Below are positions 4,276 through 11,985 of a stretch of 64,000 bases of DNA, piece by piece. How positions within the stretch are numbered: the first letter of the stretch is position 1; each line of letters begins with the position of its first letter. The translations under genes and the position numbers were made by a program. Origin of the DNA: Oscillospiraceae bacterium. Lineage in GTDB: Bacteria; Bacillota; Clostridia; Oscillospirales; Oscillospiraceae. The stretch covers positions 1-64,000 of the forward strand of contig SVLH01000001.1 in the NCBI GenBank assembly GCA_015068025.1, in the 5' to 3' direction. Below the pieces are notes generated by a model. It had not been told where the DNA came from, ran no database searches, and worked only from the letters and a program-made list of their open reading frames with translations.

Positions 4276-5490
4276 ATGGAACAGCATATTTTCGGTGTTT
4301 CCGAAGTGAATCAGCTGGTCAAGCTGCTGCTGGACAACGAGCCGCTGCTGGCCAATGTGGCGGTGCGCGGTGAGCTTTCCAACTATAAGATCTACCCCTC
4401 CGGTCACCATTATTTTACCCTGAAGGATCCGGAAGGCGCGCTGCGCTGCGTCATGTTTAAGAGCGCAGCCATGAAGCTGCGCTTCCGGCCGGAAAACGGG
4501 ATGCAGGTGATTTTGCAAGGGCGAATTTCCGTATTTCCCCGGGACGGTGCCTATCAGCTCTACTGCAATACCATGACGCCGGAGGGCGCTGGCGATCTGG
4601 CGCTGGCCTTTGAGCAGCTCAAGCAGAAACTGCACGAAGAAGGCCTGTTCGACCCGGCACATAAGAAGCCGCTGCCTCCGTTTCCGGAGAAAATCGCCAT
4701 TATCACATCCTCTGCCGGTGCGGCAGTCCATGATATGATCCGCATCCTGCGGCGGAGATACCCTCTTGCCAAAGTGATCCTCCTGCCGGTGCGGGTACAG
4801 GGCGCAGAGGCACCGCCGGAGATCGTGGGTGCCATCCGATACGCCAACCGCTGGCGAGTGGCCGATCTCCTTATCACGGGTCGCGGAGGCGGATCCATGG
4901 AAGATCTGTGGGCGTTCAATGACGAACGGGTCGCCCGCGCCATTTATGAATCGGAACTGCCGGTCATTTCAGCCGTTGGCCACGAACCGGACGTCACCAT
5001 CGCGGACTTCGTGGCAGATGCCCGGGCGTCCACGCCCTCCAACGCGGCGGAGATCGCCGTGCCGGACAAGGCGGAACTTCTTCGCTGGCTTCGGGACGCC
5101 GGTGGACGCATGGAGCAGGCCGAATCGGCTCGCCTGGAGTCGCTGCGGAGCAAGCTGGATGGAATGGCGCAAAAACGGGTTATGACCGACCAGCTTGCCT
5201 ATGTGCAGGACAAGCGGATGGAGCTGCTTCATGTCCAGCAGCGACTGGGCGATCTTTCCGCCGTGCAGGTGAGCCGGAAACGGCAGCGGTTTTCCGCTCT
5301 GACGGCAGCGCTGGACGCTATGAGTCCGCTGAAAGTGCTGGGACGCGGCTATGCCATGGCGCAGAACGAACAGGGTCAGATATTGAAAAGCAGCCGGGAC
5401 GTGGCACCGGGCGACCGGGTTTCCGTCACCCTTGGCGAGGGAGGCTTCTCCGCTGTTGTGGAGACGCTGTTGAAGGAGGATGAAGCATGA
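4276..5490 (+). CDS. xseA: Exodeoxyribonuclease VII large subunit
   Basis: XseA family (VRGELSNYKIYPSGHHYFTLKD; GRGGGSMEDLWAFNDE). Confidence 0.97.
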   Translation: MEQHIFGVSEVNQLVKLLLDNEPLLANVAVRGELSNYKIYPSGHHYFTLKDPEGALRCVMFKSAAMKLRFRPENGMQVILQGRISVFPRDGAYQLYCNTMTPEGAGDLALAFEQLKQKLHEEGLFDPAHKKPLPPFPEKIAIITSSAGAAVHDMIRILRRRYPLAKVILLPVRVQGAEAPPEIVGAIRYANRWRVADLLITGRGGGSMEDLWAFNDERVARAIYESELPVISAVGHEPDVTIADFVADARASTPSNAAEIAVPDKAELLRWLRDAGGRMEQAESARLESLRSKLDGMAQKRVMTDQLAYVQDKRMELLHVQQRLGDLSAVQVSRKRQRFSALTAALDAMSPLKVLGRGYAMAQNEQGQILKSSRDVAPGDRVSVTLGEGGFSAVVETLLKEDEA

Positions 5491-5723
5491 GCGAAAAGAA
5501 AGTCACGTTTGAGCAGCAGCTCTCCCGTCTGGAGGAGATTGTAGCTGCGTTGGAGAAGGGTGACGCCCCTCTGGCGGATTCCCTGAAGCTGTTTGAAGAG
5601 GGAACGAAGCTGATCGCAGCCTGCTCCAAGCAGTTGGATCAGGCCGAGCAGAAGGTTGTCAAGCTGATGAAGGGCGCTGACGGCGCGCCCGTGGAACTGC
5701 CCTTTGCGGACGAGGAGGATTGA
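5487..5723 (+). CDS. xseB: Exodeoxyribonuclease VII small subunit
   Basis: XseB family; overlaps xseA stop. Confidence 0.95.
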   Translation: MSEKKVTFEQQLSRLEEIVAALEKGDAPLADSLKLFEEGTKLIAACSKQLDQAEQKVVKLMKGADGAPVELPFADEED

Positions 5724-5725
5724 CT

Positions 5726-6601
5726 ATGGAACTGGCCTTTGCCGAGCGGTATGAACTGTATCGTCAGGAGATCGAGCAGTATCTGAATTCTCTCTTTGAG
5801 GAGGAGCCCCATTGGGCGGATCTGTATGCGTCCATGCGCTATTCTGTTTTGGCGGGCGGTAAGCGGATTCGTCCCGTGCTGACACTGGAGTTTGCCCGTC
5901 TGGCCGGCATGGACTGGCACGATGCCGTGCCGGTGGCTTGCGCATTGGAACTGGTGCATACGTATTCCCTGATCCACGATGACCTGCCCTGCATGGATGA
6001 CGACGATCTGCGCCGCGGCAAGCCCACCAACCACAAGGTATACGGCGAAACGCTGGCGGTTCTGGCAGGCGATGCCCTGCAGGCAGAGGCCTATCGCCTG
6101 ATTTTGACTGCCCCCGGTCTGAAAGCCGAGCAGAGAGCAGAGTGCGCCCTGATTTTGGCAGGCGCCTCCGGAGCCGACGGCATGGTGGCGGGGCAGGTGC
6201 TGGACACCCTCCACGCGCCGAAAACGGAGCAGGAACTGACGGAAGTTCACCGCCTGAAAACCGGCGCCATGATCGCAGGAGCCTGCCGCCTTGGTGTTGC
6301 GGCTGCCGATGCGAAGGAAGCCTTCCATCAGGCAGCTGCGGAGTACGGCTATCAGTTGGGTATGGCGTTCCAGATCCGGGACGATATGCTGGACGTGATC
6401 GGCAATGCAGACGAGTTTGGCAAGCCCATCGGCTCCGACCGGGAGGAAGGAAAGGTCACTTTCCCGGATCTGCTGGGTCTGGAAGGCTGCGAGCGGGCGG
6501 TTTTGGATTGTACAGAACGCGCGAAATCGGCCGTTGCCCCGTGGGACGAGGACGGCTTCCTTGCCGAACTGGCGGACAGCCTGACGAATCGTATGAAGTG
6601 A
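5726..6601 (+). CDS. ispA: Farnesyl/geranyl diphosphate synthase (polyprenyl synthetase)
   Basis: DDLPCMDDDDLRRG and second DD-rich motif (QIRDDMLD). Confidence 0.96.
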   Translation: MELAFAERYELYRQEIEQYLNSLFEEEPHWADLYASMRYSVLAGGKRIRPVLTLEFARLAGMDWHDAVPVACALELVHTYSLIHDDLPCMDDDDLRRGKPTNHKVYGETLAVLAGDALQAEAYRLILTAPGLKAEQRAECALILAGASGADGMVAGQVLDTLHAPKTEQELTEVHRLKTGAMIAGACRLGVAAADAKEAFHQAAAEYGYQLGMAFQIRDDMLDVIGNADEFGKPIGSDREEGKVTFPDLLGLEGCERAVLDCTERAKSAVAPWDEDGFLAELADSLTNRMK

Positions 6602-6609
6602 ATATCCAG

Positions 6610-6641
6610 ACAGCCGAAGCAGGTTTGCTCCGGCTGTTTTT
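6610..6641 (+). terminator. Intrinsic terminator after ispA
   Basis: acagccgaagc..gctccggctgt stem followed by ttttt. Confidence 0.7.
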
Positions 6642-6697
6642 CCTTAAAAATCAAGGAAAAGACGCAAAAAGTTTACAAATGTATATACAGAATAATA

Positions 6698-6726
6698 TTG
6701 CATATTCAATGTGGGAGTGGTATACT
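6698..6726 (+). promoter_or_regulatory. Promoter of OLE RNA/oapA unit
   Basis: TTGCAT-17 bp-TATACT with extended -10 TGG; predicted TSS ~6733 at the base of the OLE terminal helix. Confidence 0.75.
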
Positions 6727-6732
6727 GATTTT

Positions 6733-7391
6733 CGCTAAGCGGCGGCGCAGTATTCTAGTCAGATCTGCCGTTTCCCAAGGAGGGCCTAAAAATCCTCTAA
6801 AGGGCACATCGATGAAACCTCTGGTGCCTGCTTGATACGCCCAGTGTTGGGCGGGTGCTGGGGGGAAGCGCGCCACGCGTGCTTGCGGACTCAGGGCGAT
6901 TTCCAATGGCATGGTTACCCTGACCCTGTTTCCGTGGAGACCTGTTCTTGTGCATGGCCGTACTCCCATTGTGGTATTTCCGAGCTATGTACGAAACAGA
7001 TTAGGAACCTGCAATGCGGTGCATCGGCGCCTGACGGAGCCGTAACGCTGTGTGCAGACGTAGCCTGCCTTGAGGTGGGTATGGAGGATGAGAGGTCAGG
7101 TTGTACGGACTCCGGCCGGAGTTGAGCGACCCTTTGCTCTCTGAAACCATGGCTGCAAAAGAGGCTAAAGAAGCGGACAGACTGTGGTGGAAAACACCTA
7201 GGCTGTTCCTGTGGAGACAAAAAAGGGATTACAGTGCGGACTAAGTGGCAGTCGGGTAGCGCGGATAGGCAACGCCGCGCCGTGACACCGAACGGGGAAC
7301 CGCCTCCATCGGCAACGAGAGGTGTGTCTCGGGGAAATCCAACCCGTACCTAAGCCGTAAGATTTACCTTTTTTGCCGCCGTCGGCTTAGC
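6733..7391 (+). ncRNA. ole: OLE (Ornate Large Extremophilic) RNA, candidate
   Basis: ~660 nt without credible ORF between ispA and an OapA-like gene + dxs (established OLE locus). Dedicated promoter; complementary ends (gctaagc-ggcggc at 6734-6746 vs gccgcc-gtcg-gcttagc at 7375-7391); many internal helices, e.g. cgcccagtgttgggcg. Confidence 0.82.
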
Positions 7392-7426
7392 AATCGCAAC
7401 CAAGCATTTCTTTGGAGGACAGTTCC

Positions 7427-7975
7427 TTGAAAAAGAAAAAATCAGATAAAAAGGGCAGCTCACCGTATCGGTGGGCGCTGACAGCGTTTTTGATGGCGGT
7501 GGCCGTATCTGCAGTGCTGACGCTGGCGTCGGAATCGATGCTGGACGGTGCGGGTGTGGCAGTCGCTCTTTTGATTTTATGGATCTTTATCGCCCTTGGC
7601 ATCCTGTTCGATATTCTCGGCGTGGCCGTCACGGCGGCTGACCCGAAACCCTTTCATTCCATGGCGGCGCACAAAGTCAAGGGTGCAAAGCAGGCGCTGA
7701 TGCTGCTGCGAAATGCAGATCGCGTGTCCAGCATCTGCAACGATGTGGTGGGTGATATCTGCGGCATCGTGTCCGGTGCCACCGGTGCGGTCATCGTGGT
7801 GCGATTACAGTCCGGATTGGGACTGAACGCCATCCTGGCCTCCGTGGGCGTGACCGCGCTGATCTCCGGCCTTACCATCGGCGGAAAGGCGCTGGGAAAG
7901 CCCTTTGCCATGAACCGCAGCACGCGCGTCGTCTATCTGGCAGGAAGAGTTCTGTATTTTTTCCGCTGCCGTTAA
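7427..7975 (+). CDS. oapA: OLE-associated membrane protein OapA-like
   Basis: Multi-TM basic protein immediately downstream of candidate OLE RNA; DxxxD motif (NDVVGD); start reassigned to TTG 7427 after RBS ggagg (track start 7412 overlaps the RBS). Confidence 0.78.
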   Translation: MKKKKSDKKGSSPYRWALTAFLMAVAVSAVLTLASESMLDGAGVAVALLILWIFIALGILFDILGVAVTAADPKPFHSMAAHKVKGAKQALMLLRNADRVSSICNDVVGDICGIVSGATGAVIVVRLQSGLGLNAILASVGVTALISGLTIGGKALGKPFAMNRSTRVVYLAGRVLYFFRCR

Positions 7976-7991: not shown

Positions 7992-9851
7992 ATGATTCTG
8001 GAACAAATTCATTCTCCCGCCGATGTCAAGGCGCTTTCGGCGCAGCAGCTTCCGCAGCTTTGCGAAGAACTGCGCGCATTTCTCATAGAAAACGTTGCAA
8101 ATACGGGCGGACATCTGGCCGCCAATCTGGGTGCCGTGGAGCTGACAGTGGCGATCCATCGGGTGTTTGACACCGCCAGCGACCGTCTGGTCTTTGACGT
8201 GGGACATCAGTCCTATGTCCACAAGGCACTCACAGGGCGGAAAGACCGGTTCGCCACCCTGCGGCAGCTGGACGGACTGTCCGGCTTTCCCAAGCCACAC
8301 GAAAGCGAGCACGACGCCTTTATCGCCGGCCACGCATCCAATTCCGTGTCCGTGGCACTGGGTATGGCGCGGGCCAGAACGCTGCAAAAGGCAGATTATC
8401 ACGTTCTGGCACTGATCGGCGACGGTGCGCTGACCGGTGGCCTGGCCTACGAGGGACTCAACAACGCCGGGGCGTCCGGTGAGCCGCTGATCGTCATCCT
8501 GAACGACAACGGCATGTCCATCAACCCCAATGTGGGCGGTATGCCGACCCATTTGACCCGTCTGCGCAGCAAGCCGGGCTACTATCGCTTTAAAAAGTGG
8601 TATCGCAGCCTGTTCGGCCCGCAGCCCACTAGCCATGCCCTTTACCGCTTCAACCATAAAGTCAAGACCTTTGCGAAGAAGACTCTGCTGCCCGGCAGCA
8701 CCTTGTTTGAGGATATGGGATTCAACTATTTCGGCCCAGTGGACGGACACGATCTGGGACAGCTCTGTGACATTCTGCAGCTGGCAAAGGAACTGGAACA
8801 GCCCGTGGTGGTGCACGTTCACACGGTCAAGGGGAAAGGGTACCCCTTCGCCGAGCAGGAACCGGGCAGATTTCACGGCATCAGTCCTTTCGATCCTGTT
8901 ACCGGCATCGTGAAGGGCGGCGGAGAAGACACATTCTCTGCCGTATTTGGCCGTGCGCTGACGGTGTGTGCTGCGGAAGATGAGCGCGTCTGCGCCATCA
9001 CAGCCGCTATGGCGGACGGCACCGGCCTCGCACCCTTTGCGGGATCCTATCCCGACCGCTTTTTCGATGTGGCCATCGCGGAAGGGCACGGTGTTGCCAT
9101 GGCCGCCGGCATGGCGGCACAGGGCATGATCCCCGTGTTTGCGGTGTATTCCACCTTTTTACAGCGTGGCTTCGATCAGTTGATCCACGATGTGTCGCTG
9201 GAGGGGCTCCATGCCGTGTTTGCTGTTGACCGCGCAGGACTTGTCGGCGCAGACGGAGAGACCCATCACGGCTGCTTTGACGCCCTGTTTTTACCGGAAA
9301 TTCCCGGCTTTACGGTGCTTTGCCCCGCCAGCTTCGCGGAACTGCGTTCTATGCTGCATCAGGCGCTTTTTGACCTGGATGGTCCCGTCGCCCTGCGCTA
9401 TCCCCGGGGTGGGGAGGGGCGGTTCCGGGAGGATACCTCTGGTGCCGACATCGTGCGGCTCTGCGAGGGCGGGGACATTACGCTGGTATCCTACGGTATC
9501 CTTGTCAACCACCTGCTGGATGCAGCTGAACTCCTAAAAAATAAGGGCATCTGCGCGGAAGTGGTGAAGCTGAACCGTATTGCGCCTCTGTCCGGTGAAG
9601 CTGTCTGTGAGGCGCTGGGCAACAGAAAGAACATTCTTGTGCTGGAGGATTCCTTCGGTGCAGGCTGTGTGGGACAGCGGCTGAACGCCATTCTTACGGA
9701 GAATGGACAGGCTCCCAATCGTTTGATTCTGAAAAATCTCGGAAAAACGTATGCGCCCGAGGGAAGCGTGAGCCAGTTGGAGCAGCGTTTGGGACTGGAC
9801 GCAGCGGCCGTAGCCGCAGCAGCAGAGGAGGCGATTGCAAGTGGCAAATAA
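7992..9851 (+). CDS. dxs: 1-deoxy-D-xylulose-5-phosphate synthase
   Basis: DXS-like (VGHQSYVHKALTGRKDRF; GDGALTGGLAYEGLNNAG; transketolase C-terminal domain). Confidence 0.97.
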   Translation: MILEQIHSPADVKALSAQQLPQLCEELRAFLIENVANTGGHLAANLGAVELTVAIHRVFDTASDRLVFDVGHQSYVHKALTGRKDRFATLRQLDGLSGFPKPHESEHDAFIAGHASNSVSVALGMARARTLQKADYHVLALIGDGALTGGLAYEGLNNAGASGEPLIVILNDNGMSINPNVGGMPTHLTRLRSKPGYYRFKKWYRSLFGPQPTSHALYRFNHKVKTFAKKTLLPGSTLFEDMGFNYFGPVDGHDLGQLCDILQLAKELEQPVVVHVHTVKGKGYPFAEQEPGRFHGISPFDPVTGIVKGGGEDTFSAVFGRALTVCAAEDERVCAITAAMADGTGLAPFAGSYPDRFFDVAIAEGHGVAMAAGMAAQGMIPVFAVYSTFLQRGFDQLIHDVSLEGLHAVFAVDRAGLVGADGETHHGCFDALFLPEIPGFTVLCPASFAELRSMLHQALFDLDGPVALRYPRGGEGRFREDTSGADIVRLCEGGDITLVSYGILVNHLLDAAELLKNKGICAEVVKLNRIAPLSGEAVCEALGNRKNILVLEDSFGAGCVGQRLNAILTENGQAPNRLILKNLGKTYAPEGSVSQLEQRLGLDAAAVAAAAEEAIASGK

Positions 9852-10665: not shown

Positions 10666-11546
10666 ATCAAAAGAAAATCATCCTGTGTCCCAATCCCCAC
10701 CGTGATGTTGGGATGGTGACCACCAAGGCGGCGGAAAGTATTCTGCGGGAGTCGGGCTTCCAGACGGTTGTCTGTTCGCCTTTCCGCGACCAGAAGGATG
10801 AGTCCTTCGCGGATTACGATGTCAAGCCACTGCTGCAGGAACTCAAAGGCGCGGATCTGCTCATCACCTTTGGCGGTGACGGCACAATCCTGCATCTCGC
10901 CAAGCTGGCTGCCCTGCACAAGATCCCTGTTCTGGGCATCAACATGGGCGGTCTGGGCTTTATTGCAGAACTGGAGAAGGGAGAGCTCGATGCCCTCCGG
11001 AAGCTGCAGGACTGGACCTTTGAAACGGAGCAGCGTATGATGCTGGATGTTGCTGTCATGCGGGACGGAAAGCAGATCTACACCAATCTGGGTCTGAATG
11101 ATGCTGTCATTCGGGAAGGCCCCATTTCCCATGCCATCCACCTGAAGATCTCCTCCGACGGGCGCCATCTGGCGGACATCGCCGGCGATGGCGTCATCGT
11201 CGCTACGCCCACGGGTTCTACGGCCTATTCGCTCTCTGCCGGCGGCCCTGTGGTGGAGCCGGTGGCACAGACCATGGTCGTGTGCCCCATCTGTATCCAC
11301 AATATGCGGTTTTCCTCTTATGTGCTGGCGCCGGAACACACCCTGACGGTGGAACTGGAGCGCAATGGCAGAAAGCCGGTATACCTATTTGTGGACGAAA
11401 GCCGCGCCTTTGCGCTGAAATCGGACGATAAGGTCATCGTGCGCCGCAGCAAGCATGCCCTGAAACTTGTCCGTTTGACGGAGCGCAGCTTCTGCGAGAT
11501 TTTTGCACAAAAAATGCTTCCGGGAGGGCTGAACAGTGAAAAATGA
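10662..11546 (+). CDS. nadK: NAD kinase
   Basis: GGDGTILHLAK and NMGGLGFIAE motifs, TPTGSTAYSLSAGGP. Confidence 0.96.
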   Translation: MNQKKIILCPNPHRDVGMVTTKAAESILRESGFQTVVCSPFRDQKDESFADYDVKPLLQELKGADLLITFGGDGTILHLAKLAALHKIPVLGINMGGLGFIAELEKGELDALRKLQDWTFETEQRMMLDVAVMRDGKQIYTNLGLNDAVIREGPISHAIHLKISSDGRHLADIAGDGVIVATPTGSTAYSLSAGGPVVEPVAQTMVVCPICIHNMRFSSYVLAPEHTLTVELERNGRKPVYLFVDESRAFALKSDDKVIVRRSKHALKLVRLTERSFCEIFAQKMLPGGLNSEK

Positions 11547-11985
11547 TCGTCAAAGCATGATCCTTGAGATCATTTCCCAGGAAAATATCGAAACACAGGA
11601 GCAGCTGCTTGCGCGCCTGCAGGAAAAGGGCATCACCAGCACGCAGGCCACGATCTCCCGCGACATCAAGCAAATGCACCTCATCAAGGAGCCGGTGGGG
11701 CAGGGGGTATACAAATACGCCGTGTCCAACAACCGCACCAAACTGAATGTGGCGGAGAAGCTGCGCACCATCTTCCGCGAGAGCATCACGAGCATCGCCA
11801 GCGCCCAGAATATCGTGGTCATCAAGACCATGCCGGGCCTTGCCAGTGCCGCGTGCAGCGCGCTGGACAACATGGAGATCAGCTACATGGTGGGCTCTCT
11901 GGCAGGCGATGATACCGCCTTTTTGCTGATGCGGGATACCGAATCCGCGTCCATGTTCTGCGAAGAACTGAAATCCATGCTGTAA
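11536..11985 (+). CDS. argR: Arginine repressor
   Basis: ArgR family N-terminal (TQATISRDIKQMHLIK) and C-terminal domains. Confidence 0.95.
   Translation: MKNDRQSMILEIISQENIETQEQLLARLQEKGITSTQATISRDIKQMHLIKEPVGQGVYKYAVSNNRTKLNVAEKLRTIFRESITSIASAQNIVVIKTMPGLASAACSALDNMEISYMVGSLAGDDTAFLLMRDTESASMFCEELKSML

Follow-up and report, generated by a model that had tools for sequence, protein, structure and literature searches.

A full-length OLE RNA with a lineage-specific J5/6 hairpin upstream of oapA in a gut Oscillospiraceae genome

The ole locus and its neighbourhood

The window, that is, the whole 64-kb stretch of DNA that was analysed, belongs to an incomplete metagenome-assembled genome (MAG) of the gut Oscillibacter/Dysosmobacter group. 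It carries the gene order xseA-xseB-ispA-ole-oapA-dxs, the classic isoprenoid/exoVII neighbourhood, and the preliminary description had correctly placed its RNA candidate with ispA on one side and, on the other, an OapA-like gene and then dxs. Beyond dxs lie tlyA, an NAD kinase gene, argR, recN, and a gene for a PcrA-like helicase. The features of the locus are as follows:

4276–5723, + strand: xseA and xseB, exonuclease VII (PF02601, PF02609)
5726–6601, + strand: ispA, farnesyl diphosphate synthase (NF045485, PF00348)
6612–6641, + strand: probable terminator hairpin and T-run, agccgaagcaggtttgctccggctgttttt, separating ispA from ole (read directly)
6690–6707, no strand assigned: inverted repeat GAATAATATTGCATATTC overlapping the -35 element, conserved upstream of ole and probably operator-like
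6698–6726, + strand: putative ole promoter, TTGCAT - 17 nt - TATACT, with a predicted start at about 6733 (conservation across the lineage)
6733–7391, + strand: OLE RNA (Rfam match at 6726–7398, 397.5 bits, E 2.8e-113)
7427–7975, + strand: oapA, encoding a 182-aa CNNM/DUF21-type membrane protein (weak PF01595 match, hydropathy, DxxxD)
7992–9851, + strand: dxs (TIGR00204)

The start codon of oapA is most likely the TTG at 7427, located behind GGAGGA at 7414. The encoded protein scored 25.8 bits against PF01595, under the cut-off of 28.4, and gave no NCBIfam match; its closest OapA, from another Oscillospiraceae MAG, is 96% identical. Residues D106 and D110 are spaced equally to D100 and D104 of H. 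halodurans OapA, the replacement of which constitutes the PM1 mutant (PMC9723947). OLE was located directly upstream of OapA in all 80 homologue loci fetched, some of which were cut by contig ends.

A TATACT box resembling a -10 element and a weak -35 element precede the RNA in 36 of 37 lineage loci. A strong consensus sigma-70 promoter was ruled out: the consensus scan gave no entry at the appropriate position, the ole promoter falling under its cut-off, and the promoter assignment therefore rests on conservation. The hairpin at 6612–6641 was not detected by the consensus scan either. In most of the 37 lineage ole loci, an AT-rich palindrome, GAATATGTTGYATATTY, lies over the -35 element, in the window within the interval 6681–6726; when one mismatch was allowed, the pattern occurred at ole in 9 of 11 genomes and at one other site, in genome G023. 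In a subclade with long J5/6 inserts, described below, this position is occupied by another palindrome, GGAAAC...GTTTCC. We found no earlier description in the literature of a near single-copy palindrome over the ole promoter, and our guess is that a dedicated ole regulator acts at this site.

Identity of the RNA and comparison with known OLE classes

The proposal that the stretch encodes an OLE RNA was borne out by a covariance model search, in which the score of the match to RF01071, the Rfam OLE family, compares with a gathering score of 50 bits and the alignment covers model positions 1–616 of 616, and by the presence of OapA directly after the RNA. OLE was the sole Rfam match in a scan of the full window. 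The qualification of this RNA as divergent has to be dropped: the match is strong and spans the full length, and the changes specific to the lineage are local. The predicted folding energy was -272.7 kcal/mol against a shuffle mean of -246.6 kcal/mol (z -3.8; better than 20 of 20 shuffles), and open reading frames within the stretch are short, the longest having 97 aa in the sense and 101 aa in the antisense direction. In the Rfam alignment, the P4 A-rich loop, P5, P6, J6/7, and the P12.2/P13 core are all present, and irregular-length inserts distinguish related OLE genes. The following elements lie outside the kink-turn region:

6734–6746, + strand: 5' arm of the terminal helix (own- versus swapped-partner duplex energies, 124 OLE RNAs)
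6785–6795, + strand: L4 A-rich loop, CCUAAAAAUCC, conserved in the Rfam alignment
7255–7340, + strand: probable P12.2/P13 region with two GGCAAC loops (Rfam alignment)
7375–7391, + strand: 3' arm of the terminal helix (same comparison as for the 5' arm)

The complementarity of the ends had been described precisely (gctaagc and ggcggc in the 5' arm, gccgcc...gcttagc in the 3' arm), and these ends are left unpaired in the Rfam alignment. Across the 124 RNAs, the mean end-duplex energy was -19.6 kcal/mol for each RNA with its own partner and -13.9 kcal/mol (sd 0.33) with swapped partners. Since own ends pair far better than swapped ones, the two ends form a genuine helix with covariation, which may already be part of published OLE models. 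The L4 A-rich loop forms the A-A dimer bridge in cryo-EM structures (PMC12286853), and P12.2/P13 is the OapB-binding region in H. halodurans (PMC9723947).

With the full-length OLE class (RF01071; Fernando & Breaker 2024) the RNA has in common the whole-model match, the conserved core, the linkage to oapA, and the isoprenoid/exoVII neighbourhood. It differs from that class in having a J5/6 hairpin of about 18 nt (>100 nt in one subclade), G+C-rich helices, and GCGG in place of AAGG with a P6 that is two pairs longer. OLE variants 1 (TANB77) and 2 (RF39) have gut-associated hosts, as here, but in these variants P7, P8, and P9 are shortened or lost, the OapB site is often lost, and OapB and OapC are mostly missing, whereas the present RNA has P7–P9 as well as the P13 region, and both proteins occur in the genus. 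Assignment to variant 1 or 2 was ruled out, the P7–P9 helices being aligned at full length. We conclude that the stretch 6733–7391 is very probably a functional OLE gene. It is a new representative of a known RNA class and adds modest structural and evolutionary detail.

The kink-turn region

Two arrangements of the kink-turn have been published. In the OapC kink-turn of Lyon 2022, J4a/5 is joined with J5/6, whose AAGG is required, and in that of Kretsch 2025 it is joined with J6/7, which is also the arrangement in the cryo-EM of the C. acetobutylicum OLE (PMC12286853, PMC12412911). A point against the latter arrangement is that, in vitro, OapC is bound by an H. halodurans fragment that lacks J6/7 (PMC9723947). 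The corresponding elements of the present RNA are:

6807–6816, + strand: J4a/5 kink-turn strand CAUC-GAU-GAA (UC, 3-nt bulge GAU, GAA; compared in 150 distinct OLE sequences)
6866–6884, + strand: lineage-specific J5/6 hairpin AAGCGCG-ccacg-CGUGCUU, without counterpart in canonical OLE, with covarying pairs
6885–6888, + strand: GCGG in place of canonical AAGG, extending P6 by two pairs into J6/7 (pairing with compensations)
6934–6940, + strand: J6/7 GUGGAGA, the other strand of the cryo-EM kink-turn

In the 150 distinct sequences, the C and the GAA of J4a/5 are kept (C-NNN-GAA) around a variable 3-nt bulge, and GAG of J6/7 occurs in all of them, an invariance that is partly built in, since C...GAA and GAG were prerequisites for extraction; inspected failures still show both. 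Extraction missed 39 of 216 loci, mostly truncated copies or copies with altered anchor loops. Nucleotide numbers (84, 85, and 142–193) are approximate H. halodurans numbering, mapped via the Rfam consensus and the published text.

AAG stands at the base of P6 in 79 of 81 canonical OLEs, and in the lineage AAGG is replaced by GCGG, GCAT, or GCAA, together with the inserted hairpin. The strict combination of U84 and GAU was found in 74 of 81 canonical OLEs and in 30 of the 69 that bear an insert (Fisher test, nominal p 1e-10, with ancestry ignored); the insert-bearing RNAs have lost AAGG and kept C85, GAA, and the J6/7 GAG. The first four pairs of the inserted hairpin are standard in 98–100% of 47 unique sequences, including changes from A-U to G-C. 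The four bases 3' of this hairpin pair with bases before GGAG in 96–100% of 51 sequences, so that P6 is two pairs longer. At positions 142-193 and 143-192, 96% of the 51 unique sequences have a standard pair and compensations occur, and the pairs of the extension appear as G-U, G-C, or A-U alternatives across the lineage. We found no earlier description in the literature of this J5/6 hairpin insertion or of the AAGG change that lengthens P6.

The J5/6 AAGG required in the Lyon 2022 kink-turn is thus gone in this lineage, whereas both strands of the Kretsch 2025 kink-turn, C-NNN-GAA and GAG, are kept. The loss of AAGG together with the relaxation of U84 and of the GAU bulge is read here as a lost J5/6 contact with a retained J6/7 kink-turn. 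Given the extra J5/6 hairpin and the longer P6, the kink-turn would most likely combine J4a/5 with J6/7, as in the cryo-EM arrangement, and not J4a/5 with J5/6 and a partly opened P6; for this lineage we hold the J4a/5–J6/7 assignment with moderate confidence. Covariation of nucleotide 84 with J6/7 was sought and none was found, many sequences having C84 or A84 against GAGA, so that support for the cryo-EM kink-turn is confined to C85-G and the G.A pairs.

J5/6 inserts of more than 100 nt were observed at five OLE loci (L039, L040, L041, L042, and L044), and no OapC was found in their genomes. A genome-wide search did not find YbxF in these five genomes (G003, G009, G019, G026, and G027; completeness about 95% for G003 and G009), and their five rpsL loci have no ybxF upstream, compared with YbxF in 21 of the 28 other OLE-carrying genomes of the genus (nominal p 0.003). 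As the five long-insert genomes may be one clade, the loss of OapC is an association only. A subclade of this kind without OapC has, as far as we found, no earlier description in the literature. Broken OLE copies in G022 and G026 were ruled out, both copies reaching contig ends.

The extra hairpin could instead be neutral filler that is uninformative on the kink-turn, an explanation that competes with the kink-turn part of our reading only. Its location in a joining region and the varying length of other OLE loops would fit this, but the insert is accompanied by the loss of AAGG, the longer P6, and the relaxed U84 and J4a/5 bulge, and inserts of >100 nt coincide with the loss of OapC; we regard neutral filler as plausible without favouring it. 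Returning to the J4a/5–J6/7 kink-turn, a fuller proposal has about an even chance in our judgement: that this is an Oscillospiraceae OLE variant in which a longer P6 and an added hairpin take the place of the J5/6 strand of the Lyon 2022 model, OapC is contacted via J4a/5 and J6/7 only, and the long-insert subclade has an RNP without OapC. Few conserved bacterial RNAs lacking a known biochemical function are as large as the membrane-bound OLE, and the rebuilt protein-binding bend region helps to decide between the two published kink-turn models. The lineage amounts to a naturally occurring set of mutants of the OapC contact: closely related genomes differ in the strands, in whether the protein is present, and in how long the insert is, so that the two models are directly testable.

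Partner proteins, proposed function, and distribution

Within the genus, the OapB gene lies between map and infA and is present in all genomes that are at least 91% complete; its product matched the solved OapB structure (PDB 7k9b) with an E value of 5.5e-8. The gene for OapC/YbxF lies upstream of rpsL, and OapC was found in most relatives. Neither OapB nor OapC was found in the 71% complete genome of the window, an absence most likely due to incompleteness because infA and rpsL are also missing. bS21 is encoded in the window's own genome (G000:C37:31380-31541) and in nearly all relatives. The CCUCCU anti-Shine-Dalgarno mimic of H. halodurans P6 is absent from P6 of this OLE in the Rfam alignment; the H. 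halodurans mimic mutants M1–M3 still bind bS21 (PMC12054373). The argR gene (11536–11985) is four genes downstream of oapA, and unpublished evidence for ArgR-OLE binding is mentioned in the same paper (PMC12054373).

The ole gene comprises a promoter-like element followed by an OLE RNA that is full length, at about 660 nt, and precedes oapA in the isoprenoid/exoVII cluster. By analogy with the OLE RNAs studied in H. halodurans and Clostridium, the 5' domain would fold into an RNA dimer, OapA would tie the RNA to the cell membrane, the P12.2/P13 region would be gripped by OapB, the kink-turn bound by OapC and P6 by bS21, and the particle would adjust growth when Mg2+, alcohol, cold, or the carbon source imposes stress.

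The RNA might also be viewed as a long structured 5' leader of oapA-dxs, that is, a cis-regulator and not a free RNP, since OLE always adjoins oapA, lies on the same strand with 35 nt between the 3' end of the helix and the oapA start, and is followed by no terminator detectable by consensus scan before oapA. H. halodurans OLE, however, is an abundant separate RNP (PMC12265935, PMC11332333), and the elements conserved for OapB, for OapC, and for the dimer belong to the free RNA, which makes a leader very unlikely. Even less credible is a degenerate OLE, recognisable, no longer functional, and retained via its linkage to oapA: it would suit the missing P6 mimic and the two MpfA-like CNNM/CBS proteins in the genome that could take over, but it is opposed by the compensated pairs of the terminal helix as well as of the new hairpin and P6, by the conserved promoter and intact oapA, and by the partners kept in the genus.

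We therefore retain a functional OLE gene as the preferred reading. Of the 37 genus genomes searched, 33 carry OLE, the window's own included, as do 125 of 293 genomes (43%) sampled from the class Clostridia. Named relatives are Oscillibacter and Dysosmobacter, many of them from ruminant, deer, or chicken gut samples. The suggestion of a gut-dwelling, non-extremophile host agrees with this placement in gut Oscillospiraceae, but its implied novelty for the extremophile label does not stand, since the list of Fernando & Breaker 2024 already comprises 2,822 OLE-carrying Bacillota genomes, the gut clades TANB77 and RF39 among them (PMC11332333). As OLE is common in Clostridia, gut commensals included, culturable commensals are available as models.

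Some observations concern MpfA. The two MpfA-like CNNM/CBS proteins of the window's genome are encoded in tandem (L264, contig C6:2000-5500); at most one is usual in published OLE genomes. In a Dysosmobacter MAG (G013, L031 2513-3670), a divergent MpfA-like gene lies directly beside ole, replacing ispA. A complete same-family relative without OLE (G088) encodes two MpfA-type proteins, which fits the published anticorrelation of OLE and MpfA.
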